This document shows positions 308-17,360 of a stretch of DNA of 56,852 nucleotides, one piece after another. Each line of letters begins with the position of its first letter. Position 1 is the stretch's first letter. This stretch comes from a virus, in the IMG/VR virus record IMGVR_UViG_3300044673_000155, positions 1-56,852 of that record; one strand, 5' to 3'. Made by a program: the position numbers and the translations under genes. A model generated the notes under the pieces. That model did not search any database, was not told the origin of the DNA, and worked only from the letters and a program-made list of their open reading frames with translations.

Positions 308-3300
308 ATGCCTCTTGACATTATCAAAGCCCGACAAGCCGGTTACAGTGACGATGAAATAGCGGACTACCTTAACAAGGAACGCGAAGTCAGCGACCTT
401 GCTGCTACGTACAAGCGCCAGCGGTCCTTGGAGACGGAACCCCGCATTGACTTTGCAACTGCCGGAAGGGTCCAGCGACCGGCCGCCGAAGGGCTGACGG
501 ATGGCGTCAATATGTACCCGGCCGGGATTACTGCCGATCCACTTGGCCAGGATATGCAGAATCAGGCGCTCGCCCCGAGAATCCCGAGGCCGACACCGGT
601 TGTTGAGTCCGAGCAGCAGTCACCGGACCTGGTGGCAGCGTTCAACCTGTCGGGTATTTCCGACCGCCAACGGGCCACGTCCGGTTACCTCGAAGAGTCT
701 CCTGTTGTCCCGACCGCTGGTAATAATGACGTGGGGTGGATAGCCCCCGGGTCACCACGAAAAGGGCTCACGTATGACGCAAGCATAGCCACACCGAGAG
801 GCCGTGAAGAAGCTCAGTTCATCCGACAGGAGTATGGTAACAAGCCGATCCTCACCGCAGCGACACAGGCAGCGGAAACAGTCAGCCTGCTATCCTTCCC
901 CGTGGCCAGTGCTTTCGACAACATCACCGGCAACGATGCTCAGAAGGAGCGCATAGCCGGAAACATAGAAGACCTCCAGGGTTTCAAGCGTGAGCAGGCC
1001 CCGAGCGAAAAAGTCGGGCCGGTCGGAAAGTTCATCCGTACCGGGGAAGAGCTCGCAACAGGAATAGCCGCCATGGGACCGGCCGCCGGGATCACTTTCC
1101 CGGCCCAAGCGTTTACCGGTACCGCTCTTGACTCACTCGACCAGGGCATAGATCCGACCGTAGCAAGTGCAAGGGGGATACTGTCAGCTGCAGCAACCAC
1201 GGCCATGATGGCCGTTCCCTTGGCCGGTAAGTCGGTGGTGCAGGGGATTTCCCGGGGGGTTGCGTTCAACCCCGCCTTGGGCATTGCAGAGCGGACAGCA
1301 GACAAGGCGATCCTCGAAGGAGCCGGTTATGATCAGGCCGCTTCCGAGGTCAACCCGTTTGGAGCTGGTGAAATCAGCCACGATGCGCTCATGGGCGTTC
1401 TATTCAGTCTGCATCAAAACGTCGGCAAGTCGAACAGGACCATCCCGACAGAACGTGGCGATGTCGCAGTCAAAAAGCCATGGACAACCGGCGATGCTGT
1501 CGAAGACTTCATCCCGTTTGGTGATATTGCGAAGAGTTCCTGGAGCATGAAGGACATAAACTCTTTCTTTGCCGAAGAGCTCAAGCCCGTCAAGGAAGGT
1601 CTCAAGGAACGGGGCTGGTCCGCCAGGGAGATAAACGATTACATCTTGAACAAGTTCAAGAGCGCATCCGCCGACGCAAAGGCCAAGTACGACGCATGGC
1701 GAGCGGAGCAGAAGCACGACACTCCGACCATTGAAACCGCGAATACCGAACCGCCGGCAGAGACCGCACAAACGGCAGCACCCGAGCCGGAACCAAAACC
1801 GGCACCGAGCGGTGAAGCGGCTGCGGTGCCGATCACTTCCCAGCATGTCGGGGAAACAGTCACTGACGGGAACAGGACCGGGATACTCTCCGCAGCAAAG
1901 GGCAAGAAGGCTACGGTCTTCTGGCACGACACCGGATTGCCCGGGGCTGTATCCATCAGCAAATTGCAACTGTCACCGAATCAAACGGAGGTAAAAAGTA
2001 ATGGAGAACCCGATGCCAACATGCCCGGTGTGCAAGACGCCGGGAGTGCGGTGGACAATGGGCGGATGGAAGTGCCCGCACTGCAAGGTGAGACTGAGCG
2101 AAAAGGAGATGAATCTCAACCCCAGCCAGCCGCAACAGTAGAGGGGACAGTGGCCGGGCCAAAGGCCATCGGGTTGCTTGACGCCATACCCGACGCCCGT
2201 GCCCCCGAGAAAAGCACCCCCACCGCCGGCATGTATTCAGATTTTGCCAAGAAGCGGACACAGTTCAACCCTGCATCGCAGGGACTTTCAACCACGGAGG
2301 ACGCGACCAATGAAGTGCCCAAAATGCGGGAAGAAGCAAGGCAGAAGGAACAAGTGCCACCAGTGCGGGGAGCCGATGTAAAACAGCCGTGGGAAATGGA
2401 TGACGTTGCATGGTTCAAACATGCGGAGGGTGGCAAGCTGCACCAGGCTACCGGCAAGTCAATACCGGGTGAGGACCAGGTAAAAAACCCCGTGGTAATT
2501 GGCCGCATGAATGGATATCCGGAACAGGACATAGCCCATTTCTACGCAGCTCGGGAAGGTGCCTTCAACGGTTTAGGCGGCAATGACCTTATGGATGCCG
2601 TTGAACGAGCCTATGAGGCTTATAAGCGAGATGCCCTCGAAGCCAACAAAAACACCCCCGGCAAGGTGTCGAAAACCGATAAATGGGAAGAGGCTCAAAA
2701 AGAAGTAAACAGTATTTATCCGACTATCAAGGAATTGAAGAAGCCTGAGTCAAACCATATCGTCATGGACATACAAACCATGCACGGCGGGCAATCAGGA
2801 AAGAAAATAGCGGCCCCGTATGATGGCACTGAAAAAGACGCTTTGCGGGTAGCGAAGGCATTAAAGCTGTACGCCTCCGAAGAGTTCAACGCCTCCATGC
2901 GCGAGTCCGCTGTCTTCGCTACAGGTGCAAACGCTGAACCCGTGTACGCCTTCACCCAAGGGGAAGGAGTAACCGAGATTCATAAAATGGCACAGCCCGA
3001 CAATGCCCAGGCGGAACAGATCGAGACCACGCTCAAGCCTGAAAAGCAGGAGTTCGTCCGCTCTAAGATAACCGAACTCGGGGATCGCGAGTCTGCCCTC
3101 CAGTTCATCACCGAGAAGTATGGGAAAGGTTCGGAACTGGCCAAGTTCGCCATGAGGGTAACCGATCAGCTTTACCCTGAAACTGAAAAGCCAGTCCAGC
3201 GCAAGGATGGTGAACCCAAGGGGGCCAATGCAACAGAGCTAACAGTCTATCATGGTAGTTATTCTAAAACTCCAATGATCCCTGACTCAAATGGTAATAT

Positions 3301-6300
3301 CTATTATTCAACCAGTAAAAAAACTGCCCGCCTTTATGGCAAAGTAAGCGAAAGCACCATATCAGTTAATAATCCCATGGTAGTAGATGCCGGTGGAAAG
3401 CTTAAAGGTGAATGGGGAAATTACGATGAAGTAATAGACGAAGCACGTTCAAATGGTAATGACGCAGTAATAGTTAAAAACGTAATTGATGTGCCAAGTG
3501 ACATAGAGGAAGGTTATTATAGGGATAGGTTGTATAAATTTAAAAGCGACATAGTAATACCAATAAAAACCACGAAAGATAGTGTTAAACCTCAAGAGGT
3601 ACCTGCACAAGAAAAAGAGCAGGCATCCACTATCTCCAATCCAGCTAAAAAAATACACCCCGTAATTCAGGAGATGATCAACCGAGGGAGTGCAAAGGCT
3701 GACAAGGTCACTGTCTTCAACAAGCACCAGAAGGACATGGCCGGAGTCATGCAGAATTTTGTACGGCCCGAGGCCGGCAACGAGCGCAATCCCACGGTGA
3801 ATAAAACCGAGCTCCCCATCACCCCCGTCAAGCGCGACGAGAAGGCTGCGGCCAAGACCGACAACCCACCGCGGGAAGCCTTTACCGTCACAACGGACAG
3901 CGGGGAACTGCGCATCTTCCCCGGGGATAAGTATCGTATCGAGTTCCACCGTGGCACAGCTGCAGGGACTGATAACATTCCCGAGCAGTCACTCGATGAC
4001 ATCGCCAAGAAATATGCCGAAGCTCTTGGCAGCGGCACCGTCAATACGCTCCATAAAGATTTCGCTGTAGCCATTGTCAATAAGGATGCCGCAGCGTTGA
4101 GATACCTTGCCAACGGGTTAAACGATGTCGGCAAGAGAGTATTTTCAGAAGTCACCGGGGTACCATTGCCACGGCAACAGTCTAAAACATGGGATACCCT
4201 TATGGAGTGGGGCGGTATTGACCCACAGCAGCAAGCTCTGCAGGATGAGCACCGCCAAGCAGGGAGAGCGTGGACCCGGGCGGCCAAGGACCTGGAGGCG
4301 CTGAAAAACGGCGCTGAAGCCGTCAAGCACATTGACAGCTTGATAGAGCAGGGTTTCAATCACTACCACGAAGTAAAGACTGGTAAGGCAAAGATCAGCG
4401 CCTATTTATCAAAAGCCGATGACTTGTCTCACGGACACCTGCTGAACCCGAAAGGCCAGCCCGAAGCATTTAAGGCATACGCGAAGGCTGCGGCGAAATA
4501 TCGCGCAGCTGAAGCATCGTTGGGAGAAACTCCACAGCCGAAACCTGAAGCGGAAAAGAGTGAACCGGAAACCCACGAAGGTATCGCCATAGGCCACGAA
4601 TGGGACTCCCCTTACGGCCGGCAGCGTTTTGCCAGGGTTGACAATGACGGTCCCACCCCGATGTACGTTGTTGAAACCGTCGACAAGCCCGGGGAGATCC
4701 GCAATTACAGACACATTGCCGAAACGGTCAAGCGCGACGAATATGCACTGACTCCTGAGTACCAGACTGAACAAGAGCAACGGAAAGAGACCGCCCGCAA
4801 GAATCAGGAAGCCGCAGAGCAGAAAGCGGCTGCAGACGCCAAGACGGACAGCGAAATCGCCAAGTTCACCGAAGGCATGAGCACTCTCGCAGCCGGCAAG
4901 GCCCGGGCGGCACTGCTCAAGCGGTTCAGCTTTGACGGCAAGGAAATGTCCAGAAAGGAGATGATCGAGCAGCGCATTGCCAAGGGGTACCGCGTGACCG
5001 GGGAAGAGGGCTCACGCCGGTTCGAGACTGCCGATGGATCAGGGCTTGACGAGAAGACCATTGGCAAGACCGCCATGGAGTATGCCGAGTACCTAAGCAA
5101 CGAAACCGAGGAATCGTTACTTAGTGAGCCAGCTAAAGAAACGGAAGTTGTTGATTCACTCCCCGCCCCGGTACAGTCCGAGCCGCAGGCCGAGAAATCC
5201 CTTATTGAGCAGGAAGCAGACTCGCTTGATGCCGCCGGTATCGCCGACCTGATTCATTCAACGATGGAAGAAGAGGCATTGCAGGAGCCCAGCAAGACGA
5301 AAGAAACGAAGCCCGCCACAAAGCGAGCAGTCAAGATGGGAGAAACCACGGCCAAAAAGCGCACAGCGGCCGCAGGAGCGAAGAAAAAAAGAAGCGAGGG
5401 CAAACCTATCTCCCTTGTTGCCGACGCAGCCAGGGAAGCAGGAGAGGGCTTTGCGGAATCGTTCAAAGGTCTCGCCGCTGCATTCGGTGTGGATGAAAGC
5501 AAGCTCGTCACCTTTCCGCCGCACCTTGATCCGGACGCATACGAGAAAGCCCGCCCGCATTTTCAAAGCGCGTGGGAGCACTACAAAACCTCCGGTAAAT
5601 CACTGAAAGAGTTCATCCAGTACCTGGTTCGTACCCTTGGCCAGTACATCAAGAACTTTGCCGACTATCTTGGGTACTTCATTGGCGAAATGAAAGGTAC
5701 TGAAAATTTCGAGAAGGACATGGCAGAGCGTGATACAATAAAGAAAAAAGCGGAGGGGACCGCCCATGATGACACTCGAACAGCTGGCGAACAAAGCGAA
5801 GAAGCACTGGCGAGAGTTCCTACCGGAAATGACCAAGGAACTGGAAGAGGAAGGGACGTTCGAGCAGAACGCTCTGGCAGCGGCGAAAATGACCATGCGG
5901 GAAATAGAGGTCCTGAAAATGAAGGGGTATCAAGACCACGAAGCGGAAGAGGCCGCGCTCCCGTTGTTCATCCTGAAAAAGCCGGAAGTCAGCCTTTAAC
6001 CAGTGAACAGGCGGCGTCTGCTCCCGCGAACGTCCCTGCAGTAAATTTTGTCATCACTCCCGATCTTGGCCTTGGCAAAGGTGGCGAGGTTGCCAAGTTC
6101 AACGACAACATAGCAGCAATCAACATTCTTAAGACGCTTGGCCGCGAAAACCGCAGGGCGACTCCCGAAGAGCAAAAAGCTCTGGCGAAGTACGTCGGCT
6201 GGGGTGGTCTCGCAAACGCTTTCAGGGGCGAGGACGGCAAGCACAAGCCCGACTGGAGAGACAGGGGGGAGCAACTTGAATCGCTCCTGACTCCTGCTGA

Positions 6301-9300
6301 ACTGAAAGCTGCCAGGCGATCAACCCGTAACGCCCACTACACTTCCGAATCGATTGTCAGGGGGATGTGGGGCGCCGTCCAGCGCATGGGCTTTAAGAAC
6401 GGGATCGTTCTTGAACCGTCGGTGGGAACTGGTAACTTTGTGGGCATGACCCCCGAAGGAGTCAACCCCCGTTTCGTCGGCGTTGAATACGACAGCCTGA
6501 CCGCCCGCATTGCCACAGCACTCTATCCGCAATCTGCCGTACTCCATTCCGGTTTTCAAAAACTCGCCATCCCTGATGGTGCCTTCGACCTTGCCATAGG
6601 CAACCCACCGTTTGGTTCCGAGTCTCTTTCCTTCCAGTACAAGCCGGAACTGAAAGGCTTATCGATCCATAATCAATTTTTCATCGCCAGCATGGACGCC
6701 CTGAAGCCTGGGGGGGTTCAGGCGATGGTCGTTTCCCGCTACCTGATGGATGCCCAGGACAGCACAGCCCGCCTCGAACTGGCACAGCGGGCCAAGTTGC
6801 TCGGCGCCGTCCGCCTCCCTGACACCGCTTTCAAGGAGAACGCGAGAACCGAAGTCGTCACGGATATCATCTTCCTGCAGAAGTTGACGCCGGAAGAACA
6901 GCGCAGCATGAAAGACGCAGTGCAGGCGCTCCGGTCCAGGCCCGAAAAGAACGCCGACGATGAGCGAGCCCGTTTGGACCTTGCCGCCCAGGTTCCAGAA
7001 TGGGTGAACACGATAAAACTGGCCGACCCTCTCGGCGGCGAGGACATGGTGGTGAACCGCTACTTTGCCGAGAACCGGCACATGGTTGTCGGTGTGCTGG
7101 AGCGGTCGGGATCAATGCGAGGGAGCAGCGATATTACCGTGAGGTTCGCGGGCAAAGACTTCGATGCACAACTGAATGAAGCACTGCAGCGCCTCCCCCG
7201 GGATATCATCAAGAATGAAACCCCGCTTGAAGCCATCGAGAAGAGACACACCGACCTTGTCGGTTCTCTGCAAATAGGTCTCGAAGGGCTGGAGCACGGG
7301 TCGATTGTCTTCAACCGAAACGGCCAGATTGAGGAGGTCATCGAGAGAGAGACGCCCGAAGGAGGGTATGAGTTCCTGAGAAGGCCGCTCAACCCCGACG
7401 CCTCATGGTCCGACCGGCTTATCATGGGTGCCGACGGAAAGTGGTTCACCGTAGATGATCAGCTTGATGCCGAAGGAAACAAGGTAAAGCTGGTCGACGC
7501 TTCAGGGAAGGAAACGAAGCGCAACGCAAAGGTACGCAACACCTTTGAATCGGAGGCCGATATCCCCGCAACAATGCGCCTGGGGCAGTCCCGATACGAG
7601 CGCCTTGTTTCCCTTATCGGGATCCGCGACCTACTCAAGCGGCAAATCATCCTCGAAACCGAAGACAGCCCCGCGGCCGACATGGATTCGAACAGGGAGA
7701 AGCTGAACAAAGCCTACGACGATTTCGTGTCCAAGCACGGGTTACTTAACTCCCCCAAGAATGAAGGGCTGATATCTGACATGCCGGATGGGGCGCTGAT
7801 TGTGGCCCTTGAGAACAACTACAAGCCGACCATATCGAAAGAGCGGGCCAAGAAACTCGGGGAACTGCCCCGGGAAGAGTCAGCCGACAAGGCGCCCATA
7901 CTCAGCAAGCGCGTTGTCATTCCGTATGAACCACCTTCAAAAGCTGCGTCACCGGCAGACGCCCTTATCGTCACCATGGCGGAATCCGGACAGGTCGACC
8001 TTGACCGCCTTGCGGCACTCCTTGGAACCGATCACGATGGCGTTATCAAGTTGCTTCATAACGACATGACGGAACCGTTGATCTTCTTCGACCCTGAGTT
8101 AAAAAGTTGGCAGACCAGGGACCAGTACCTATCCGGCCAGGTTAAACGCAAACTGTTGGCGGCCCAAGAGACCGGCGTAGAAAAGAACATCGCCGCACTG
8201 GAGGCAGTCCAGCCGGAACCATGGACCGCTGATAAGGTAACTGCCATCATCTCCGGTACCTGGATACCCGTTGACGTGTACGAATCATTCATCGAGCACC
8301 TGACCGGAGAGCGTGGCAAAGTGGTTTTCTCTGCCATTACCAACTCGTTTTCGGCGGACGTGCCAAACACGGCGAAGGCAGCTGATTACAAGACCGCGCA
8401 CACTGACCTTCCCTACCTGCTGAACCAGATGCTCAACAGCATGTCGATCAAGGCCACGACAAAAGACGCGGACGGCAATACTATTTTCCTCGCAGACGAG
8501 ACGGCCCTTGCCAATATGAACGTGAAGCGAATCCATGAAGAGTTTTCCGATTGGGTCTTCGCGGACGGGGATCGCCGGCGACGGCTGGTGGATATCTTCA
8601 ACGAAAAATTCAATGTCAGGGTGCAGCGGCAATACGACGGCTCTCACCTGTTCCTCCCGGGTAAGGTCCCCGACATCATCATAAGCATGAGGCGACACCA
8701 GAAGAACGCAATATGGAGGGGCATACAGGAGCGGTTCACCCTCTACGACCACGCCGTAGGTGCCGGCAAGACATTTACCGCCATCGCCAGGGCCATGGAA
8801 CGTCGCCGCATGGGTCTTTCACGTAAGCCGATGATTGTTGTCCCGAATCACATGGTCGAGCAGTTCGCCTCCGACGTGTACCGTCTGTATCCTGGGGCGA
8901 AGATGCTCGCCGCGGGCAAGAAGGATTTCGACACACAGAACCGGCGCCGGCTCTTCGCCAAAATCGCAACCGGCGATTGGGATATCGTGATTGTCCCTCA
9001 TTCCTCGTTCAAATTCATTTCCATCTCACCTGAAGCCGAAGAGCGATACCTGGAAAAGGAGATCCAACTCGCCAAGGACGCCATTGCAGAAGCTGAAGAG
9101 CAGGCGGCAGAAGACGGGCACACCGGATGGCGCAAGCCGTTCAACGTGAAACAGGCTGAAGCACTGGCCGAGAAACTGGAAACCAGGATGGCCGGGTTGA
9201 AGGCAAAGAAGCACGACCGCCTGCTTACTTTCGAACAGCTGGGAGTTGATGACCTGACCGTTGACGAAGCCCATGAGTTCAAGAATCTGTTCTACTCTTC

Positions 9301-12300
9301 GCGCATGAGCGGCGTCAGGGGGATGGGCGATAGATCGGGATCAGAGAAAGCGTACGATCTTTACCAGAAGGTCCGTGTGCTCCGCGACTCCCCCACCGGG
9401 TCGGTCACCTTCATGACCGGGACGCCGATCAGTAACAGCGCTGTGGAGATGTACACCATGATGCGCTACCTTGCCGCCGACGAGCTCAAAGAGCAGGGGC
9501 TTGAACATTTCGACGCATGGCGGGCTCAGTATGTCGATGCGTCAACAGCATGGGAGCCGACAGAATCTGGCCGGTTGAAGGAAGTCACCCGCCTGGGCCG
9601 CAGCTGGTCGAACATGCGTTCACTGATGGACCTGTACTATTCATTCACCGATGCGGTGTCCATCGAGGATATACAGCGGTGGTACGAAGAGGACAACAAC
9701 GGTCAGCACTTCCCCATCCCGAAGGTAAAAGGTGGCACACGGACAAAGGTTATTGTCCAGCCGACCCAGGCGCAGAAGGACTTGCTGCAGGGTATTCTCG
9801 ACGGATTCGACGGGCTCGACAGCATCGAGAACCCGAACGAGCGCAACGCCGCACGTCTCCGCCTCATGGACAGAGCACGGAAAGTCTCTCTTGACGCTCG
9901 CGCCGTTGATCCTTCCCTCGATACCAAGGAAGTCGGCGGGAAACTCCAGGTTGTATCAGAACAGGCCAAACGCATTTACGACCAGTGGAACGAGGACAAA
10001 GGCACACAGCTTATTTTCCTCGATCGATCGGTACCGAAGAGCAAGGGCGATGACAAGATTCTGAAACAGTACGACGGGCTCATAACGAAGCGCGACGACG
10101 CAATGAGGCGCGGAGATGAAGCGGCATATATGGCCGTGGTCGAAGACCTTGAAAAGTACGACGCCAATGAGATGGAGGAACTGAGAAGGGCGCAGACTGG
10201 CGGCTGGAATGCCTATCAGCAGATAAAAGACAACCTTGTAGCCATGGGGATACCTGCCAAGGAAATACGCTTTGTGCAGGAGGCAACAACCGACGTTCAG
10301 AAGCAGGCCCTGTTCGATGCAGTCAGAGGCGGCGAGATTCGGATCCTTATCGGGTCGACACCGAGGATGGGCGCCGGCACGAACGTACAGGACCGGCTCG
10401 TTGCTCTGCATCACGTTGATGTTACCTGGAAGCCTTCAGACATCGAACAGCGCGAGGGTCGGATTGTCCGCCAGGGTAACAAGCTCCTGGAGAAGTACGG
10501 CGAAGATTTCGAAGTTGAGATACTGCCCTATGCGACAGAACTCACCGTTGACGCGAAGATGTGGAGCCTGAACTCGACCAAACTGAAGACGATCAACGGT
10601 ATCCGCAAGTACAGCGGCGAGTTCAACATGGATTTCGAAGACGAGGAATCGGTGAGCATGTCGGAAATAGCCGCTCTCGCTTCCGGCAATCCGTTGATGC
10701 TGGAGCGCGTCAAGCTCGACTCTGAAATAAACCAGCTTGAAATGCTGCGCAGAGGGTGGAACCGGCAGGCAATGGCCTTGAATGACCGTATTGATGAAGC
10801 GCAGAATATCATTGCCGATTATCCGGAGAAGATCGAGCAGGCGAAGCATGACGCCGAGGCCATCAGCCAGGCCCTTGACCAAGTGATAACGTCCTCCGCA
10901 GGCAAGGCAATCACCGTTGAAGGGACGAAATACAACACCCGTATCGATGCAGCCAAGGCAATATCTGCAGAAGTGGAGCGGCAGCAGGATGGCAACGAGA
11001 AGGCCCGTTATTCGGTTAACGTCGACGGAGAGCAGTTGACCTCGAAGATGGCCATAGAGGACGCGCTCGAACATGCCTATGGGGATGTTGAGCCTTTCTC
11101 GATGACAATCGGCAAGGTCGAAACCGCACAACGTAAAGTCGCAGCTAAGGAACTGGCAACCATCGCAAACGATATTGTCGCGAAGATGGACAGGGACGCA
11201 GCAAAAACCATGGCAAGGCGTGTCGGCTCCTGGCTCGGGATGCAGCTTGAAGTGGATGTCGCCAATTCGTGGGGTGATCTTGTCGCTGAAGTCAGCCTCG
11301 TTAACGGGGACAAAAAGACCGTCCTCACTGAGAGAGGTAAACGGATACTGCGGAAAGAGGCCAAGAGCGAAGGGGCATTCTCCCCGCAGTACTTCAGGGC
11401 GCTACTGAACGATGCTGAACGGAGCCTTAGCCAGCTGGCATCCGGCGGCTCTGCCCGGTATTACGAAAACAGGCTGGCAGCCGCAGAAAAGGACATGCCG
11501 CAACTCCAGGAGCAGGCCGCAACGAAAAAAGAGTTCCCGAAGCAACAGGAGCTCGAAGACAAGCGGGCGCGGCTGGAGGAAGTCATCACCCTCCTGTCAG
11601 ATAAGCAACAGGCTCCCGAAGAGGAAGGAGTCGCGGAAGATACCACAAGGAGTGCTCAGGCATCGAGCAGCGTGACTCTCGACATGCTGGGGCTCCAGCA
11701 GGCTTACGAACGCCTTGCCAACAGCAGCACGGCAAGAGACGGAGCGGAGGCGTTGAGGCAGGCCGGGGCACATTTCTACGCCAAGGGCAATCAGACGTGG
11801 CGCGAGTGGCGCGCCGCCATGAAAGAGTTCCTTGGCAAGTTGTTTAAGAAGTTCGCAGGGATGCTGGAAAAGCTGTACCGCGAGCTCAAGGCCGACGCGA
11901 AATGGTGGGGTCAGATTGCCAAGGAGGAAATTGACAATCTCTCTGCAGACATGAATGACATCTACGGTAAAGACCTGAAGCAGGCATACCTGAAGGGGAA
12001 AGGGCTTTACCAGCGCAGCCCCTTGAACAACGAGCGCGGCAGTTTCTCTATCAAGAAAGCGACCGGGGCCGAAGATGACATCATCCCGGCAATGAAAGCG
12101 GCCGGCGTCAGTCTGGTCAAATCGTGGGATAGCGTTCTCCGAGTGTTCGCCCCGGCATCCCGGGCGCCTGTCGCACGGCGCACGGCACTCAACCTGCGTG
12201 AGCTCGGCAGCAAGAAGGCAAGAAGGCTGGACCAGATCGCCGCGGCCATCGAACCGGCTCGGGAATACTTTGACCGCCATGGGGGGAAGATCACCGATCC

Positions 12301-15064
12301 CGCGAGTAAGTCGTTTCAGTTCATCCGCGCCGTGGAGCTCGGGGAAATAGACTCGCTCCCGAAGATTGAACAGCCGTTCGCCAGGCTGAACAATCTCATA
12401 TTCGATCGGTTGCTGCAGGAGATACAGAAACGTGGCCGGCTCCTGTCGCAAAAGACCAGTGCGCAGAAGATGGAAGACATGGGCCGTGAGTTCGAAATGT
12501 TCTATTTCCCTCGGCTCTGGAAGGACCCAAAGGAGGCGACAAACGTCTTGATGCAGTTGGCGTCAAAGCGGCCGTTCGAGGGGCGCAAGGCGTTTATGAA
12601 GCAACGGACCATCCAGGTGTTCGAAGACGGCATCAGGGCCGGACTGATACCGGCTTATGATAATCCCATGGACTTCATCTATCACAAGGCCGCAGAGATG
12701 GAGCAGTGGATTATGGCCCGGGACTGGATTGACGGCGAAATGCGCGAGGGGCGGATTATCGAAGTCCCGGCCGGTCACCGATCTCCGGAAGGATGGGCAC
12801 AGCTGGATGACCGCATGGGAACGATATGGGGCGGGTCGAATGTCCCCGCGTGGAAGGTACTCCAGGAGATAGCAAAAACCGGGAAGCAAGATCTTTACCT
12901 GGCGGACTTCGCTCGGGAAGCGTTCCCCTCCGGTCTCGCCGTGGCCATGGGCGCCGACGACACCATGAAGCAGGAGGCGAATGACCTCGTATGGCACGGG
13001 CGGGACGGCAAGACGTACAACATCCATGCCATGAAGCGTGGCAGCGGGAAGAGCTATAGCGTGTTAGTCCTGGAGAAGATGCTCGAAGACCAGGAGGATT
13101 TCCAGCGTGTGGCGCCGACCATCTACGCGAAGATTGAGGACATCGCCAACAACAGCGCGAAGCTGCAAAACATGCTCGATACACCGACATTCGAAAACCT
13201 GCAGCAAAAACTGCCGGTCGGGGGGATGATCGTCAAGGCACACCTGTATGCACCGGAGCCGTCGGCTAAGGTATTCAACAACCTCGTATCTCAGGGACTC
13301 AGGGGCAACGATGCGTTCCGCGCCTACCTGGGGGCCGCCAACGTGCTGAACCAGTTCCAGCTGGGACTGTCCCTATTCCATGCCGGCTTCACCTCCGTTG
13401 ACGCTGCAGTGTCCAGTACGGCCCTCGGGGTCATTCAGGCATCACACGGGGACGTGCTGAAAGCAATCAGATCGTTCATGGAGTTCCCTATTGCCCCGGT
13501 CACAAATGCAATCCGCGGGCATCAGATGATAAAGGAGTGGAACACCCCCGGGGCAGTGTCTAACCCGCTGATACCGATCCTGATTGAAGCAGCACAGGCC
13601 GGGGGGGCCCGGGCACAGATGGACCGGTTTTATCACACCGAAATCGCCAAGAAGATGATGCAGGCGTTTCGTTCCGGCAACATAGCCGGCGGGGTTGTGC
13701 GTATACCGTTTGCCACCATGGAGCGGGCCAGCAAGCCTATCCTCGAATGGCTGGTGCCACGGCAGAAAATGGGCATCATCGCGCAGGCGCTCTCTTATGC
13801 CCTGGAGCACAACCCGAACATGACCCATACTGAACTGCAAGAAGTTGCGGCCGAGATTGTAGATTCAGTGGATAACCGCATGGGGCAGCTGATTTACGAC
13901 AACCTCTTTTGGGACAAGGTGGCTAAGGACCTGGGTATGGCATCCGTGCGGTCCTTGGGCTGGAACGTCGGGACTATCCGCGAGCTCGGCGGTGGGATGA
14001 TCGATGTCCCGACAAAGCTCTTGATCGGTGAAAAACTCCCGGTGATCGAAATGGAAGAGGTCTCGCCGGTAATCAAGAAGTACCGGGAGCTCAAGGAGTT
14101 GCCGGAAGACAATTCATTGCACTCACGGCCAGCCGGCCGCAAACGTCGCGTGTCGAACCGGGCCGCGTACATGATCGCCTTGCCGATCATGGCCGGCGTC
14201 ATGGGCGCACTGTTTCAGTACCTGTCAGCCGATGGGTTATTGCCCGGTGAAGACGAGAACAACCGGGGCAAGTTCGGCGGGCCGGCCGAGATACTGAAAG
14301 ACCTGTATTACCCACGCAACGGCACAATAGGCGCCAACGGCCGGATGGCCCGCTCCGCGCTCCCGTCGTACATGAAAGACGTGTTCCACTACTGGAAGGC
14401 ACCGCTGACGACGATCACCAACAAACTGCATCCGGCGTTGTCTATCGTCGCGGAGATGATCAAGAACAAAGACTTCTACGGAACAGAGCTCAGACACGAA
14501 GACGACCCCATAGTCAAGCAGGCCGGCCAGGTCCTCGCCCACGTCGGCAAATCGTTCGAGCCCTTTGCTGTTCGCGGGTACCGGCAGAACTCCGAGCAGG
14601 GCGCAAGTATGACGCAGAAGCTCATGCCGTTCATAGGGATCACCCCGGCGCCTTCCGACGTGAACAAGACAGCAGCGGAAAAACTCGCTGACGAGATGAT
14701 CCGTGACCGCATGCCGCAAGGTGCCAGGACTCAAGATCAGTTCGACAGGTCGAAGGAGAAACAGAAGGTGGAGCGGGCGCTACGGGCAAAGGATCCGGCA
14801 GCATCGGATATGATCATGGACGTTCGCGCCCGGGGGCTGTTCAACGACCGGCAGTTGAAAGATATGCGGCAAGAGGCCGAGCGGCCGAACCTCTATAACA
14901 AGATGAAGCACCTTGACTGGCTCTCTGCCCTCAAGGTCTACGAGGTGGCCACACCTGAAGAACGCGACACCGTCAATAAGCTGATGCGGGATAAGGAGTT
15001 GAACTTCAAACAGGCAAACCCGATACGGTGGCGCGAAATCAAGGCAGCGCAGCAATCGAAATAA
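308..15064 (+). CDS. Giant polyvalent protein: ART-like, N6-adenine methyltransferase, SF2 helicase, virion-type C-terminus (DarB-like)
   Basis: A 4918-residue single frame; ATG 308 is preceded by GGAG at 295-298. Visible parts: (a) residues about 978-1087, an ADP-ribosyltransferase-like domain starting with YHGS at 981-984; (b) an N6-adenine methyltransferase with LEPSVGTGNF at 2035-2044 and catalytic NPPF at 2099-2102; (c) an SF2 helicase with GAGKT ending near 2822, VDEAH at 2985, TGTPISN at 3037 and a helicase C motif EQREGRIVRQG near 3380; (d) a helical C-terminal region (about 3950-4918) with one hydrophobic segment near 4620, resembling domains of large phage polyvalent proteins. Low-complexity linkers separate the parts. 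Proteins of this type (P1 DarB and relatives) are packaged and injected to modify or protect phage DNA against host restriction; that role here is inferred. It is the last gene before a terminator. Confidence 0.9.
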   Translation: MPLDIIKARQAGYSDDEIADYLNKEREVSDLAATYKRQRSLETEPRIDFATAGRVQRPAAEGLTDGVNMYPAGITADPLGQDMQNQALAPRIPRPTPVVESEQQSPDLVAAFNLSGISDRQRATSGYLEESPVVPTAGNNDVGWIAPGSPRKGLTYDASIATPRGREEAQFIRQEYGNKPILTAATQAAETVSLLSFPVASAFDNITGNDAQKERIAGNIEDLQGFKREQAPSEKVGPVGKFIRTGEELATGIAAMGPAAGITFPAQAFTGTALDSLDQGIDPTVASARGILSAAATTAMMAVPLAGKSVVQGISRGVAFNPALGIAERTADKAILEGAGYDQAASEVNPFGAGEISHDALMGVLFSLHQNVGKSNRTIPTERGDVAVKKPWTTGDAVEDFIPFGDIAKSSWSMKDINSFFAEELKPVKEGLKERGWSAREINDYILNKFKSASADAKAKYDAWRAEQKHDTPTIETANTEPPAETAQTAAPEPEPKPAPSGEAAAVPITSQHVGETVTDGNRTGILSAAKGKKATVFWHDTGLPGAVSISKLQLSPNQTEVKSNGEPDANMPGVQDAGSAVDNGRMEVPALQGETERKGDESQPQPAATVEGTVAGPKAIGLLDAIPDARAPEKSTPTAGMYSDFAKKRTQFNPASQGLSTTEDATNEVPKMREEARQKEQVPPVRGADVKQPWEMDDVAWFKHAEGGKLHQATGKSIPGEDQVKNPVVIGRMNGYPEQDIAHFYAAREGAFNGLGGNDLMDAVERAYEAYKRDALEANKNTPGKVSKTDKWEEAQKEVNSIYPTIKELKKPESNHIVMDIQTMHGGQSGKKIAAPYDGTEKDALRVAKALKLYASEEFNASMRESAVFATGANAEPVYAFTQGEGVTEIHKMAQPDNAQAEQIETTLKPEKQEFVRSKITELGDRESALQFITEKYGKGSELAKFAMRVTDQLYPETEKPVQRKDGEPKGANATELTVYHGSYSKTPMIPDSNGNIYYSTSKKTARLYGKVSESTISVNNPMVVDAGGKLKGEWGNYDEVIDEARSNGNDAVIVKNVIDVPSDIEEGYYRDRLYKFKSDIVIPIKTTKDSVKPQEVPAQEKEQASTISNPAKKIHPVIQEMINRGSAKADKVTVFNKHQKDMAGVMQNFVRPEAGNERNPTVNKTELPITPVKRDEKAAAKTDNPPREAFTVTTDSGELRIFPGDKYRIEFHRGTAAGTDNIPEQSLDDIAKKYAEALGSGTVNTLHKDFAVAIVNKDAAALRYLANGLNDVGKRVFSEVTGVPLPRQQSKTWDTLMEWGGIDPQQQALQDEHRQAGRAWTRAAKDLEALKNGAEAVKHIDSLIEQGFNHYHEVKTGKAKISAYLSKADDLSHGHLLNPKGQPEAFKAYAKAAAKYRAAEASLGETPQPKPEAEKSEPETHEGIAIGHEWDSPYGRQRFARVDNDGPTPMYVVETVDKPGEIRNYRHIAETVKRDEYALTPEYQTEQEQRKETARKNQEAAEQKAAADAKTDSEIAKFTEGMSTLAAGKARAALLKRFSFDGKEMSRKEMIEQRIAKGYRVTGEEGSRRFETADGSGLDEKTIGKTAMEYAEYLSNETEESLLSEPAKETEVVDSLPAPVQSEPQAEKSLIEQEADSLDAAGIADLIHSTMEEEALQEPSKTKETKPATKRAVKMGETTAKKRTAAAGAKKKRSEGKPISLVADAAREAGEGFAESFKGLAAAFGVDESKLVTFPPHLDPDAYEKARPHFQSAWEHYKTSGKSLKEFIQYLVRTLGQYIKNFADYLGYFIGEMKGTENFEKDMAERDTIKKKAEGTAHDDTRTAGEQSEEALARVPTGNDQGTGRGRDVRAERSGSGENDHAGNRGPENEGVSRPRSGRGRAPVVHPEKAGSQPLTSEQAASAPANVPAVNFVITPDLGLGKGGEVAKFNDNIAAINILKTLGRENRRATPEEQKALAKYVGWGGLANAFRGEDGKHKPDWRDRGEQLESLLTPAELKAARRSTRNAHYTSESIVRGMWGAVQRMGFKNGIVLEPSVGTGNFVGMTPEGVNPRFVGVEYDSLTARIATALYPQSAVLHSGFQKLAIPDGAFDLAIGNPPFGSESLSFQYKPELKGLSIHNQFFIASMDALKPGGVQAMVVSRYLMDAQDSTARLELAQRAKLLGAVRLPDTAFKENARTEVVTDIIFLQKLTPEEQRSMKDAVQALRSRPEKNADDERARLDLAAQVPEWVNTIKLADPLGGEDMVVNRYFAENRHMVVGVLERSGSMRGSSDITVRFAGKDFDAQLNEALQRLPRDIIKNETPLEAIEKRHTDLVGSLQIGLEGLEHGSIVFNRNGQIEEVIERETPEGGYEFLRRPLNPDASWSDRLIMGADGKWFTVDDQLDAEGNKVKLVDASGKETKRNAKVRNTFESEADIPATMRLGQSRYERLVSLIGIRDLLKRQIILETEDSPAADMDSNREKLNKAYDDFVSKHGLLNSPKNEGLISDMPDGALIVALENNYKPTISKERAKKLGELPREESADKAPILSKRVVIPYEPPSKAASPADALIVTMAESGQVDLDRLAALLGTDHDGVIKLLHNDMTEPLIFFDPELKSWQTRDQYLSGQVKRKLLAAQETGVEKNIAALEAVQPEPWTADKVTAIISGTWIPVDVYESFIEHLTGERGKVVFSAITNSFSADVPNTAKAADYKTAHTDLPYLLNQMLNSMSIKATTKDADGNTIFLADETALANMNVKRIHEEFSDWVFADGDRRRRLVDIFNEKFNVRVQRQYDGSHLFLPGKVPDIIISMRRHQKNAIWRGIQERFTLYDHAVGAGKTFTAIARAMERRRMGLSRKPMIVVPNHMVEQFASDVYRLYPGAKMLAAGKKDFDTQNRRRLFAKIATGDWDIVIVPHSSFKFISISPEAEERYLEKEIQLAKDAIAEAEEQAAEDGHTGWRKPFNVKQAEALAEKLETRMAGLKAKKHDRLLTFEQLGVDDLTVDEAHEFKNLFYSSRMSGVRGMGDRSGSEKAYDLYQKVRVLRDSPTGSVTFMTGTPISNSAVEMYTMMRYLAADELKEQGLEHFDAWRAQYVDASTAWEPTESGRLKEVTRLGRSWSNMRSLMDLYYSFTDAVSIEDIQRWYEEDNNGQHFPIPKVKGGTRTKVIVQPTQAQKDLLQGILDGFDGLDSIENPNERNAARLRLMDRARKVSLDARAVDPSLDTKEVGGKLQVVSEQAKRIYDQWNEDKGTQLIFLDRSVPKSKGDDKILKQYDGLITKRDDAMRRGDEAAYMAVVEDLEKYDANEMEELRRAQTGGWNAYQQIKDNLVAMGIPAKEIRFVQEATTDVQKQALFDAVRGGEIRILIGSTPRMGAGTNVQDRLVALHHVDVTWKPSDIEQREGRIVRQGNKLLEKYGEDFEVEILPYATELTVDAKMWSLNSTKLKTINGIRKYSGEFNMDFEDEESVSMSEIAALASGNPLMLERVKLDSEINQLEMLRRGWNRQAMALNDRIDEAQNIIADYPEKIEQAKHDAEAISQALDQVITSSAGKAITVEGTKYNTRIDAAKAISAEVERQQDGNEKARYSVNVDGEQLTSKMAIEDALEHAYGDVEPFSMTIGKVETAQRKVAAKELATIANDIVAKMDRDAAKTMARRVGSWLGMQLEVDVANSWGDLVAEVSLVNGDKKTVLTERGKRILRKEAKSEGAFSPQYFRALLNDAERSLSQLASGGSARYYENRLAAAEKDMPQLQEQAATKKEFPKQQELEDKRARLEEVITLLSDKQQAPEEEGVAEDTTRSAQASSSVTLDMLGLQQAYERLANSSTARDGAEALRQAGAHFYAKGNQTWREWRAAMKEFLGKLFKKFAGMLEKLYRELKADAKWWGQIAKEEIDNLSADMNDIYGKDLKQAYLKGKGLYQRSPLNNERGSFSIKKATGAEDDIIPAMKAAGVSLVKSWDSVLRVFAPASRAPVARRTALNLRELGSKKARRLDQIAAAIEPAREYFDRHGGKITDPASKSFQFIRAVELGEIDSLPKIEQPFARLNNLIFDRLLQEIQKRGRLLSQKTSAQKMEDMGREFEMFYFPRLWKDPKEATNVLMQLASKRPFEGRKAFMKQRTIQVFEDGIRAGLIPAYDNPMDFIYHKAAEMEQWIMARDWIDGEMREGRIIEVPAGHRSPEGWAQLDDRMGTIWGGSNVPAWKVLQEIAKTGKQDLYLADFAREAFPSGLAVAMGADDTMKQEANDLVWHGRDGKTYNIHAMKRGSGKSYSVLVLEKMLEDQEDFQRVAPTIYAKIEDIANNSAKLQNMLDTPTFENLQQKLPVGGMIVKAHLYAPEPSAKVFNNLVSQGLRGNDAFRAYLGAANVLNQFQLGLSLFHAGFTSVDAAVSSTALGVIQASHGDVLKAIRSFMEFPIAPVTNAIRGHQMIKEWNTPGAVSNPLIPILIEAAQAGGARAQMDRFYHTEIAKKMMQAFRSGNIAGGVVRIPFATMERASKPILEWLVPRQKMGIIAQALSYALEHNPNMTHTELQEVAAEIVDSVDNRMGQLIYDNLFWDKVAKDLGMASVRSLGWNVGTIRELGGGMIDVPTKLLIGEKLPVIEMEEVSPVIKKYRELKELPEDNSLHSRPAGRKRRVSNRAAYMIALPIMAGVMGALFQYLSADGLLPGEDENNRGKFGGPAEILKDLYYPRNGTIGANGRMARSALPSYMKDVFHYWKAPLTTITNKLHPALSIVAEMIKNKDFYGTELRHEDDPIVKQAGQVLAHVGKSFEPFAVRGYRQNSEQGASMTQKLMPFIGITPAPSDVNKTAAEKLADEMIRDRMPQGARTQDQFDRSKEKQKVERALRAKDPAASDMIMDVRARGLFNDRQLKDMRQEAERPNLYNKMKHLDWLSALKVYEVATPEERDTVNKLMRDKELNFKQANPIRWREIKAAQQSK
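2001..2141 (+). CDS. Nested zinc-ribbon protein, 46 aa, overprinted in the giant gene
   Basis: ATG 2001 is preceded by GGAGG at 1987-1991, and the frame ends at TAG 2139-2141. It lies in a different frame from the surrounding giant ORF. The product has two CxxC knuckles (CPVC and CPHC) about 15 residues apart, the pattern of a zinc ribbon, followed by a short polar tail. The giant protein's reading of the same DNA is a low-complexity linker rich in G, E, P and A, so selection may act mainly on the nested frame. No specific family is recognised and translation is not proven. Confidence 0.6.
   Translation: MENPMPTCPVCKTPGVRWTMGGWKCPHCKVRLSEKEMNLNPSQPQQ
2310..2381 (+). CDS. Nested zinc-ribbon microprotein, 23 aa
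   Basis: ATG 2310 follows GGAGG (2296-2300) at a spacing of 9 and ends at TAA 2379-2381. It uses the same overprinted frame as the gene at 2001. Nearly the whole product is two CxxC knuckles (CPKC and CHQC), so it could fold only as a minimal zinc ribbon. The giant protein's reading of this DNA is an unstructured linker. It may be a remnant of a longer zinc-ribbon gene or a true microprotein. Confidence 0.45.
   Translation: MKCPKCGKKQGRRNKCHQCGEPM
5766..5999 (+). CDS. Nested small helical protein, 77 aa, overprinted in the giant gene
   Basis: ATG 5766 is seven bases after GGAGGGG (5752-5758) and the frame ends at TAA 5997-5999, in the same alternative frame as the nested ORFs at 2001 and 2310. 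The product looks like a genuine globular helical protein: LEQLANKAKKHWREFLPEM, then an alanine/methionine-rich helix and a hydrophobic segment ALPLFILKKPE. The giant ORF reads this stretch as a Gly/Arg/Ser-rich disordered linker just before its methyltransferase domain. I recall similar small phage proteins but cannot name a family or function. Confidence 0.65.
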   Translation: MMTLEQLANKAKKHWREFLPEMTKELEEEGTFEQNALAAAKMTMREIEVLKMKGYQDHEAEEAALPLFILKKPEVSL

Positions 15065-15065
15065 C

Positions 15066-15095
15066 TTGCGTCGATAGCGAATTTTAACGTAATAT
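15066..15095 (+). promoter_or_regulatory. Possible sigma70-type promoter before the tail-fibre genes
   Basis: TTGCGT (15066-15071) and TAATAT (15090-15095) are 18 bases apart, directly after the giant gene stops. The -35 is weak. A strong terminator hairpin follows about 50 bases later, so if this promoter is real its transcript would have to pass that terminator. Confidence 0.3.
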
Positions 15096-15144
15096 CCGCA
15101 GCATCAGATAACGGTACCGTCGGCCCCCTTAAGGGGTACCCTAC

Positions 15145-15191
15145 GCCCGCAATATCCGCCTGACTCTTAGGTGTATATTGCGGGCTTTTTT
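15145..15191 (+). terminator. Rho-independent terminator after the giant gene
   Basis: GCCCGCAATAT (15145-15155) pairs perfectly with ATATTGCGGGC (15175-15185) and is followed by six T. It ends the transcript of the giant gene. The next gene's ribosome binding site (TTTTCAGGAG) starts immediately after the T tract, an arrangement repeated at 39635 and 55465. Confidence 0.9.
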
Positions 15192-15209
15192 GTTTTCAGG
15201 AGTATCGCA

Positions 15210-15557
15210 ATGGCACTGCAACAGGATTTGACACTTGAACAGGGCGCAACCTGGGACGATACGCAGTTCCCCCCTTTGGTAATCAAGAACCCCGACGGTA
15301 CCCTCTACGACCTGACCGGCTACACCGGGCGCTCGATGATCCGCAAGAAGTACAGCGATGCGGCCCCTGTTGTTACCCTTGCTGTTACTATCGATATTCC
15401 TACAGCGACCATCCGGCGGGCATACAGCGCCACACTTTCGAAGTCCGTACCTGCTGGTAGTTACGTTCACGACCTGGAAATATTCACGGCTGACGACGCC
15501 ATAGTACGCCGTGTGGTGCAGGGCACCATTACCGTTACTGCCGAGGCGACGAAGTGA
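15210..15557 (+). CDS. Phage tail-associated protein with EQGATW motif, 115 aa
   Basis: ATG 15210 has CAGGAG nine bases upstream; an in-frame ATG at 15171 lies inside the terminator and is rejected. The N-terminus (LTLEQGATWDD) and the alternating beta-type pattern resemble small proteins often encoded beside phage tail fibres, thought to be beta-sandwich adhesin or baseplate accessories. It is the first gene of a tightly overlapped set (15210-17545). The stop overlaps the GTG start of the next gene. The exact role is unknown. Confidence 0.7.
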   Translation: MALQQDLTLEQGATWDDTQFPPLVIKNPDGTLYDLTGYTGRSMIRKKYSDAAPVVTLAVTIDIPTATIRRAYSATLSKSVPAGSYVHDLEIFTADDAIVRRVVQGTITVTAEATK

Positions 15558-15733
15558 ATGTAGACGTGACCATCGGGGTGCTGGCGTCCCAAGCGGTAAC
15601 ATGCGGACCATTGGCGGCTGTAGCTGTTGCGCTTCCCGGCGGGCTCCCTGTTGTCACGGTTGCGGCATGGATCACCGACGCCATGGAGATATGGGTTACT
15701 GACGACGGTATCATGTGGGCGGGTACGGAATAA
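15554..15733 (+). CDS. Small hydrophobic protein in tail-fibre operon, 59 aa
   Basis: GTG 15554 overlaps the previous stop (GTGA) and the gene ends at TAA 15731-15733, which overlaps the ATG of the following gene. The product is rich in Val, Ala and Gly, with one Cys and a WVTDDGIMWAG ending. The overlaps on both sides suggest translational coupling. The hydrophobic stretch could be a membrane segment or a beta-rich structural domain. No family recognised. Confidence 0.6.
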   Translation: MNVDVTIGVLASQAVTCGPLAAVAVALPGGLPVVTVAAWITDAMEIWVTDDGIMWAGTE

Positions 15734-16035
15734 TGGCCGAGAATGTCAACCCAAAAAACTTCACCGACGCGGCAGAGATTGGCGGCTCCGAGATAGTCCC
15801 GGTTCATCAACCGGATGGCTGGCGCAAGACTACGCTGACTGCAATCAGGACATGGCTCGCACTGTCGTTTGCTGCAGTTGGCGACGGAGCAAACGCCGTG
15901 GCCGCTCACCTGATGGAACTGGACCCGCACACGCAGTATGCGCTGAAAACAGAGGTGCCGGGCTTTCCACCTAATGATGGCAATATCTACGTAATGAGGA
16001 ATGGGGCATGGGAAATTTTAAACATATCCTTATAG
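15733..16035 (+). CDS. Tail-fibre-like protein with LDPHTQY motif, 100 aa
   Basis: ATG 15733 overlaps the upstream stop (TAATG). The protein contains HLMELDPHTQYA (about residues 59-70), a motif common in the shafts of phage tail fibres, and ends in a region reading GNIYVMRNGAWEIL. It overlaps the start of the following larger fibre gene by 28 bases in another frame. It is probably a short fibre component or adaptor to the 450-residue protein that follows. Confidence 0.65.
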   Translation: MAENVNPKNFTDAAEIGGSEIVPVHQPDGWRKTTLTAIRTWLALSFAAVGDGANAVAAHLMELDPHTQYALKTEVPGFPPNDGNIYVMRNGAWEILNISL

Positions 16036-17360
16036 CATCGGCGGTGGCCGGTGTGCTGATTGCCAACGTGTCCTTGACCTCTCTAGTGCGGGCGGCGACG
16101 GTTATCGGTCAGCCGAAGTTCACGGCTAATAGCACATACACGGCGGACATTGATCGGAGATTTAAGAAATACACCTCAACCAAGCGGCTGACCACCCCGT
16201 TTGAGCGCCTTGATTTGACCGGCACATTACCGATCGTCGACGACTGGGCATCATCCGCGATATACGGCAAAAACGGCATCATATTCCCTGCCGGCACAGC
16301 AACCACCATAGGGCTGACCGATGTTGCCGCGATAGCTCCATCACCGTTCATCATCAACGGCCAGAACATTGCGGCACCTGGCTATACGGATGCAGGGCCG
16401 GTCAGGGTGCAGGGGGGTGGCTATTTCGGCCTGGCAAATCAGGGAGGGCGTGGCGGGGATGTGATAATAACCGGTGGGCCAGTCAGCCCGCCGACCGGGA
16501 ACATCCCCGGCAACGTTGTTCTTGCTCCTACGTTTGGCAATGTCGGCATAGGGACAGGGCCAGCCGCCCCGAATGAGAAACTGGAAGTGGTGGGCACCGT
16601 CAAAGCCACCGCGTTCTCCGGTTCCGGTGCTGGCTTGACCGGAGTCCTTGACGTCTGCGGGGCAACCGGCATCGGCACGCCGATTTATGACGGCGCTCGC
16701 GGTCCTGCCGGCCCTGCCGTCTTTTGCAACATCTCCGGCGGGGTGCGCTCAGTCACCTATGACTCTGCTGGTCTTAACCCCTCGGCCATGTCCGCCTTCG
16801 CTGTCCACCTGTTCGAGGGTTCTGCCGCCATTACTCCCCAGTACTGGAGCTGGTACACCGGGGGTGCTTCGAACCGCATCTACGGGACTGGCCTTTCCAG
16901 CACGTTTACCCCCTCCGTTAAGCCAGTTTTCTCCCTGGCGTCATCCAACAACTACGTTGCCGTGCAGGTACGGTACTCGACTGCCAACGGCGGTAACCGG
17001 TACTGCGTTGCCGGTGTTCCTATTGCGGTGACGAGGATAGGCGCCCAAGGACCGCAGGGCGCTCAGGGGGCCACCGATTTTACAGCAGTTCAGAATGCTC
17101 TCGGGACCGCCAACGACGGCACCATTACTCTGCTGTCGGCCACGGCCACGGAACACACCCGTTTCCAAATTAAAAAGGCTGGCAGCTACGTTGTGTTCGG
17201 AGTTACCGACCGAGGGCTGGTCACGGTCCTGCATCCTACGACCGGCTACCGGCTATTGACATTCGATCCGACCGGATCGGTCCTTACCGTTAAGAGTTCG
17301 AGCAACCGGACCATTTTTGACGTTAGAAGCAGTGCCGGTGGCGGGTTGGTGACGTTTTGA
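16008..17360 (+). CDS. Putative tail fibre / adhesin, 450 aa
   Basis: ATG 16008 begins a protein with a hydrophobic N-terminal segment (residues 5-30) ending in VRAA, which looks like a signal peptide or membrane anchor; that is odd for a virion fibre. The middle has the fibre/cell-surface repeat VGIGTGPAAPNEKLEVVGTV with SGSGAGLTGV. A short collagen-like stretch GAQGPQGAQG follows at about 345, and a beta-rich C-terminus closes the protein. These suggest a trimeric host-binding fibre. The N-terminal hydrophobic segment could instead come from a host gene or mark an exported protein. The stop overlaps the next TTG. Confidence 0.65.
   Translation: MGNFKHILIASAVAGVLIANVSLTSLVRAATVIGQPKFTANSTYTADIDRRFKKYTSTKRLTTPFERLDLTGTLPIVDDWASSAIYGKNGIIFPAGTATTIGLTDVAAIAPSPFIINGQNIAAPGYTDAGPVRVQGGGYFGLANQGGRGGDVIITGGPVSPPTGNIPGNVVLAPTFGNVGIGTGPAAPNEKLEVVGTVKATAFSGSGAGLTGVLDVCGATGIGTPIYDGARGPAGPAVFCNISGGVRSVTYDSAGLNPSAMSAFAVHLFEGSAAITPQYWSWYTGGASNRIYGTGLSSTFTPSVKPVFSLASSNNYVAVQVRYSTANGGNRYCVAGVPIAVTRIGAQGPQGAQGATDFTAVQNALGTANDGTITLLSATATEHTRFQIKKAGSYVVFGVTDRGLVTVLHPTTGYRLLTFDPTGSVLTVKSSSNRTIFDVRSSAGGGLVTF

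Follow-up and report, generated by a model that had tools for sequence, protein, structure and literature searches.

The window, by which we mean the whole analysed stretch of 56,852 bases, is an IMG/VR virus record and represents a podovirus-like phage. Among its genes, those for the terminase, portal, capsid, RecT, RusA, and helicase loader have matches in PHROG families, and the nearest relatives of the portal, at 40–44% identity, are those of Itty13, PBC5, JC1, PEp14, and similar phages. A search for close relatives with the portal as the query found none in IMG/VR and, elsewhere, distant podoviruses only. A giant ORF of 4918 aa, identified from the ORF list, PHROG profiles, and tblastn, occupies positions 308–15064 on the + strand. 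The piece of it at 6299–9301 matches the profile phrog_10089, 'DarB-like antirestriction', with E = 6e-281, and in tblastn the giant shows about 40% identity to VvAW1, SopranoGao, and Itty13 and matches PLxRFG/DarB phage proteins. With its DarB-like profile and its methylase and helicase regions, it is a member of the polyvalent, DarB-like proteins (PMC5512222). The N-terminal region of the giant was also used as a query against IMG/VR, GTDB genomes, and phages, and no relatives were found.

Two complete short ORFs lie inside this open frame, on the same strand and both in its +1 frame. The first, n1 (2001–2141, +), encodes 46 residues, MENPMPTCPVCKTPGVRWTMGGWKCPHCKVRLSEKEMNLNPSQPQQ, and is preceded by a Shine-Dalgarno sequence, GGAGG, at 1987–1991 (+), 9 nt 5′ of the ATG, in a style shared with other genes of the window. 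The second, n2 (2310–2381, +), encodes 23 residues, MKCPKCGKKQGRRNKCHQCGEPM, and also has GGAGG, at 2296–2300 (+), 9 nt 5′ of its ATG. The two starts are 309 nt apart, and the 168-nt spacer between the genes (2142–2309, +) is read through by the giant frame alone. The sequence thus confirms the original prediction of two short ORFs in one alternate frame, each with GGAGG and two CxxC knuckles. The same prediction had described the giant frame here as a low-complexity linker, and this holds both in the window and in the homologues that carry n2. Each ORF is complete and brings its own start codon and ribosome-binding site within the open giant frame, as expected of a nested gene.

Both predicted products have the two CxxC knuckles of a C4 zinc ribbon, apparently set on a β-hairpin, and the cysteines are invariant in alignment A2. 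The structural model of n1, of moderate confidence (pLDDT 73.6), has strands at E17–19 and E22–24, and its fold matches were ribosomal L37Ae, TFIIB, and similar ribbons, all with E above 1. The n2 sequence matches Zn_ribbon_3 (PF13248) with E = 2.4e-4, and n1-like proteins give weak matches to TiaS, L37Ae, and similar ribbons. The knuckles are thus shared with Zn_ribbon_3 and other C4 families, although neither protein reaches the Pfam gathering cut-offs (n2, best 20.9 bits vs 27; n1, 19.5 vs 25), and no convincing match to n1 was seen among PHROG families. The products probably bind zinc. We suggest, with low confidence, that they might be small accessory proteins which are produced along with the giant and bind nucleic acids or other proteins.

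Homologues were sought by scanning IMG/VR for a pattern of GGAGG, a short spacer, ATG, and two knuckles, which gave 111 stretches. Among these, an n2-like zinc ribbon was found in the +1 frame of a long ORF (at least 553 aa within the available stretch) in nine further records, which we label L126/L185, L179, L183, L200, L203, L208, L236, L266, and L284, and none of the 111 had a zinc ribbon in the +2 frame inside an ORF of at least 200 aa. In L200, L203, L208, L236, and L266, an n1 homologue, for example MALQIQCPHCQGRPKWNGREWECPKCKARIPDQKIIYLNPEE, is nested just 5′ of n2 in the same frame and is led by AGGAG, GGGAGG, or a similar Shine-Dalgarno sequence. The presence of this sequence in the n2 homologues is partly ascertained because the n2 scan demanded GGAGG and ATG; the n1 starts lay outside the search pattern. 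When profiles were built without the window and run against its six-frame translation, they recovered n1 with E = 4.4e-8 and n2 with E = 6.1e-9, and the n1 of L208 used alone as the query found the n1 of the window with E = 2.4e-5.

The 168-nt spacer is absent from these five records, where n1 stops 0–1 codon 5′ of the n2 start and the Shine-Dalgarno sequence of n2 lies within the last codons of n1 (AAC CCG GAG G). Because of this arrangement, n2 in the compact copies would probably be made by translational coupling or re-initiation. The original prediction had named the free loss of nested starts or stops among homologues as an observation that would count against it. The starts are kept in all n1 and n2 members found, so that this refutation fails, although for n2 the scan itself asked for an ATG; the n2 stop is less fixed, and in L208, L236, and L284 it is lost and the ORF continues. 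The genes are sparse, with n2 in 2 of 116 giants in a set picked by homology in the helicase/methylase region. Searches by tblastn with n1 and n2 in phages, and with n1 also in plasmids, returned nothing but unrelated zinc ribbons with E > 0.1, and the DNA pattern for WTMGGW had 59 matches, none of them in a zinc ribbon.

Variation in the two frames was compared across the homologues, as the original prediction had proposed, and inside n1 and n2 the variable position switches to the nested wobble base. For the n1 core set, the fractions of differences at nested positions 1, 2, and 3 are 0.28, 0.22, and 0.44, and for the pair L200/L266 they are 0.14, 0.05, and 0.32 (Fisher p = 2.8e-4). The third codon position of the giant, which is the most variable one in the flanks (0.49–0.69), is the least variable inside n1, because it coincides with nested position 2. 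The n1 and n2 alignments were built on the nested proteins and so lean to the nested frame; those of L200/L266 and L203/L208/L236 are gap-free inside n1. Read from the same bases, the n1 proteins of L203 and L208 have an identity of 0.67 in the nested frame vs 0.40 in the giant frame, and the n2 proteins of the window and L236 have 0.71 vs 0.38.

Where a nested codon precedes AA, AG, or GA, a T as its third base creates a stop in the giant frame. Such a T occurs at 0 of 100 of these places, compared with 45 of 235 other places (p = 2.9e-8), and resampling of the nested codons without this avoidance would be expected to give 10–17 giant stops. The lack of stop-making T codons indicates that both frames are maintained. 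These comparisons of aligned sequences show the nested frame of n1 and n2 to be conserved in the homologues under stronger protein selection than the giant frame, which is kept too. The claim that n1 and n2 are still translated is supported, at the sequence level, by the conserved frame, start, and Shine-Dalgarno sequence, by the pattern of nested-codon substitutions, and by the avoidance of giant stops.

A third nested gene, n3, which did not figure in the original prediction, was detected by an all-against-all comparison of the alternate frames of 124 giants, in which the n3 family was more conserved than the giant frame. In the window, n3 (5766–5999, +) encodes 77 aa in the +1 frame, in the linker 5′ of the methylase-like domain, and its Shine-Dalgarno sequence, GGAGG, is at 5752–5756 (+). 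The n3 profile HMM matched 87 giants, and in 87 of 87 the match lies in the +1 frame of an open giant; since the loci were chosen by their helicase/methylase region, this frequency is valid for that family only. Among isolates, n3 is present in SopranoGao, Atu_ph08, PEp14, Itty13, and PBC5, and in the annotated regions inspected for the first four it is unannotated. An ATG start is found in 70 of 81 confident n3 genes; 62 of the 81 have a Shine-Dalgarno sequence, compared with 8.5% of the control ATGs. The AlphaFold prediction for the nested translation has four helices, with pLDDT 95.1 and pTM 0.83. A fold search gave no PDB match below E 0.001 and a single viral match, Q8W6J4 (TM 0.92), which may, we presume, be a PBC5 protein, and a PHROG 'endolysin' profile includes the n3 segment near the C-terminal end of the profile. 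In PBC5 (L294), the giant is represented by two ORFs in different frames, 919–7476 and 8133–16682. The n3 segment falls at the junction between them, where it shares the reading frame of the C-terminal end of the upstream ORF, orf33, and is overlapped by the methylase frame. The PBC5 sequence is old, and the split may be a sequencing error. Judged from its sequence, n3 is the same phenomenon as n1 and n2 and is far more widespread.

When two genes overlap in different frames, the frame with normal codon usage is usually taken to be the older one. The scores for synonymous codon usage in the window are +0.14 for nested n1 vs −0.14 for the giant frame over the same bases (mean of the giant gene +0.14, sd 0.11), +0.04 vs −0.09 for n2, and +0.15 vs −0.26 for n3. 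Across the n3 family, the nested frame beats the giant frame in 66 of 68 cases. A coding score based on average codon composition did not separate the frames at n1 and n2, whereas synonymous usage did. Because the usage is normal in the nested frame and abnormal in the giant frame, the nested frame at n1 and n2 would be the older, which suggests that the small genes predate the giant frame over them. Stand-alone copies of n1 and n2, which the original prediction had proposed looking for between two shorter giant-protein genes, were not found in 50,697 phage records, in 72,556 plasmids (n1 only), or among the pattern matches, which leaves codon usage as the basis for judging the direction of origin. 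The idea of former small genes swallowed by the giant is thus favoured, indirectly, by nested codon usage and by the n3 junction of PBC5; the stand-alone ancestors that would have strengthened it did not appear.

We think it very likely that n1 and n2 are real genes for small proteins which share their DNA with the linker of the giant and would use internal starts, and we hold it most likely that the small genes came first. They were probably swallowed by the giant frame and are still translated. Ribosomes would initiate internally at GGAGG-ATG on the giant mRNA to give two small zinc-ribbon proteins, whose DNA the giant frame reads in another phase, as a low-complexity linker. The order of events, with the small genes first and the giant frame later extended over n1 and n2, is most likely because the giant frame, which combines nested position 3 with the first two positions of the following codon, is an easily opened one. 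A frame so easily opened across small genes would make the linker mostly a by-product, needing only freedom from stops.

The strongest competitor differs on the origin only. By de novo overprinting, the giant frame would be ancestral, and the zinc ribbons would have arisen later in a tolerant linker and then spread. The segment is indeed a variable linker, n1 and n2 are missing from most DarB-like giants, and the phage and plasmid searches yielded no stand-alone ancestor. However, a young overprint predicts the reverse of the codon usage seen in the n1, n2, and n3 of the window and in 66 of 68 n3 genes, and the genes encode ordinary C4 zinc ribbons or, for n3, a helical protein predicted to be well folded. 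We regard overprinting as unlikely, but as deserving serious consideration.

An in-frame insertion of a mobile element that carries a hidden gene and leaves the giant open is rather improbable. It has a precedent in the ShiLan domain, an out-of-frame HNH endonuclease within a phage DNA methylase ORF (PMC11855218), and the patchy spread of n1 and n2 among otherwise different giants would fit it. ShiLan and the three nested genes are alike in that a complete small gene occupies an alternate frame, the large phage ORF stays open, and the nested frame folds sensibly. However, the ShiLan element inserts by homing, encodes an HNH enzyme, and has empty sites that are clear, whereas n1, n2, and n3 code for zinc ribbons and a helical protein, are led by Shine-Dalgarno sequences, and lie in linkers of the polyvalent giants; n3 also occurs widely across a large family. 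Pfam and PHROG scans found neither an HNH nor another homing domain in n1 and n2, and alignments to giants that lack them contain no clean empty site, though linker conservation is too low for this to be certain.

A programmed +1 frameshift would make the zinc ribbons the C-terminal ends of a shortened giant and not separate proteins. Every nested gene is in the +1 frame, and the n3 segment of PBC5 is in frame with the upstream ORF, as a frameshift would have it. Nevertheless, an in-frame stop lies 0–2 codons 5′ of n1 in the window and L236 and of n2 in L200, L203, L208, L236, and L266, so that in these seven copies there is almost no room for entry, and n1 and n2 each have their own start and Shine-Dalgarno sequence. 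Shuffled giants also show the +1 bias, which is, therefore, largely an effect of frame openness. We consider frameshifting into n1 and n2 very improbable.

The chance occurrence of such genes was assessed by recoding the giant, with its protein held fixed and synonymous codons resampled, and scoring alternate-frame ORFs in which a CxxC pair occurred together with a start and a 5-nt Shine-Dalgarno sequence. One such ORF was obtained in 2 of 1500 trials and two in 0 of 1500, while the window has two. The same scan, run over 1.51 Mb of giant frame from 116 related loci, gave one extra case, the n2 homologue of L126, and the first 697 kb of related giants had none. The nested zinc-ribbon pair thus exceeds the chance expectation given the giant protein. 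The count of +1 ORFs with a Shine-Dalgarno sequence and ATG was rejected as evidence in itself: for ORFs of at least 18 aa in related giants, there are 146 real cases vs 105–158 in synonymous permutations (and 3 in the +2 frame), and only long ORFs, of at least 60 aa, are enriched (72 vs 18–45). The case for n1 and n2 is, therefore, made by their zinc-ribbon content and conservation, since GGAGG alone is insufficient. That two of these common ORFs merely happen to resemble zinc ribbons would agree with the unremarkable number of short ones, but the recoding trials, the same-frame homologues in nine further records, and the codon-position and stop-avoidance tests contradict it, and we consider it negligible.

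Nested genes as such are known. Rz1 inside Rz, annotated in PEp14, is likewise a small gene wholly nested in another frame with its own start; its protein is unrelated to those of n1 and n2, and the outer gene is small and not the linker of a giant. Relative to the polyvalent proteins to which the host giant belongs, n1, n2, and n3 form a separate coding layer, and a search for terms in the main text of PMC5512222 showed that it mentions neither overlapping genes nor linkers nor zinc ribbons. In the open-access papers searched, we saw no description of genes nested in DarB-like giants, and the novelty is to that extent provisional. Within this scope, giant phage proteins whose linkers recurrently code in two frames appear not to have been described.

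The chances seem to us about even that polyvalent giants generally owe their linkers to the out-of-frame reading of small genes, and that they grew across small genes which are still expressed from within them. If this is true, n3 (87 giants), n1 and n2, and the smaller families would constitute a largely unannotated second coding layer in one of the largest phage genes. Conserved phage genes such as n3 would have been missed by annotation pipelines, the low-complexity linkers of the giants would be explained as by-products, and there would be a concrete route to the formation of giant proteins. The reality of alternate-frame ORFs in phages thereby becomes a question that can be tested on cultured phages.

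Other nested ORFs were seen in the related giants. L183 has a second nested zinc ribbon, of a different kind, at 7168. In L007, the site that holds n1 and n2 in L208 contains another, cysteine-free +1 ORF, MSMEMYDPVIWTPELQGKMIKAELTTQAELSVMF..., at about 6491–6679, perhaps a further nested gene at a hot spot common to both. A basic, helical-looking +1 family, MPKSAAETLKRIKNRAKKMPPEKRKAFMSAVKVILRTKVRQVQEKM, occurs in L200 at 13025 and L266 at 929 (both on the reverse complement) and in L289 at 5550. Two different +1 families lie at or by the n3 site: MATRPQIQQDLMKDLRRNPKYKKMSNEELTPIAQALAKKTRARED..., in L150, L160, L161, and L169 near 9771–10050, and MDYEEMMQFAPKDCQPTVIDTGKDYQEALKQ..., in L027, L029, L030, L031, L036, and L051 near 9700–10150, the latter more conserved than the giant frame. 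A nested peptide in L173 and L175, MPYKSRAQQGYF..., considered as a possible stand-alone phage gene, had no match in Pfam, PHROGs, or phages, and this candidate was dropped. In the deposited annotation of Itty13 (L293), the region 2871–15206, where one strand holds an open giant frame of 4112 aa, has three hypothetical genes assigned to the other strand, which is probably a mis-annotation. A basic short +1 nested ORF, MAVKPTKPSKLARNRRKKEQ..., is found in L119 at 7935, in L147 at 7860, and in L014 near 7439.
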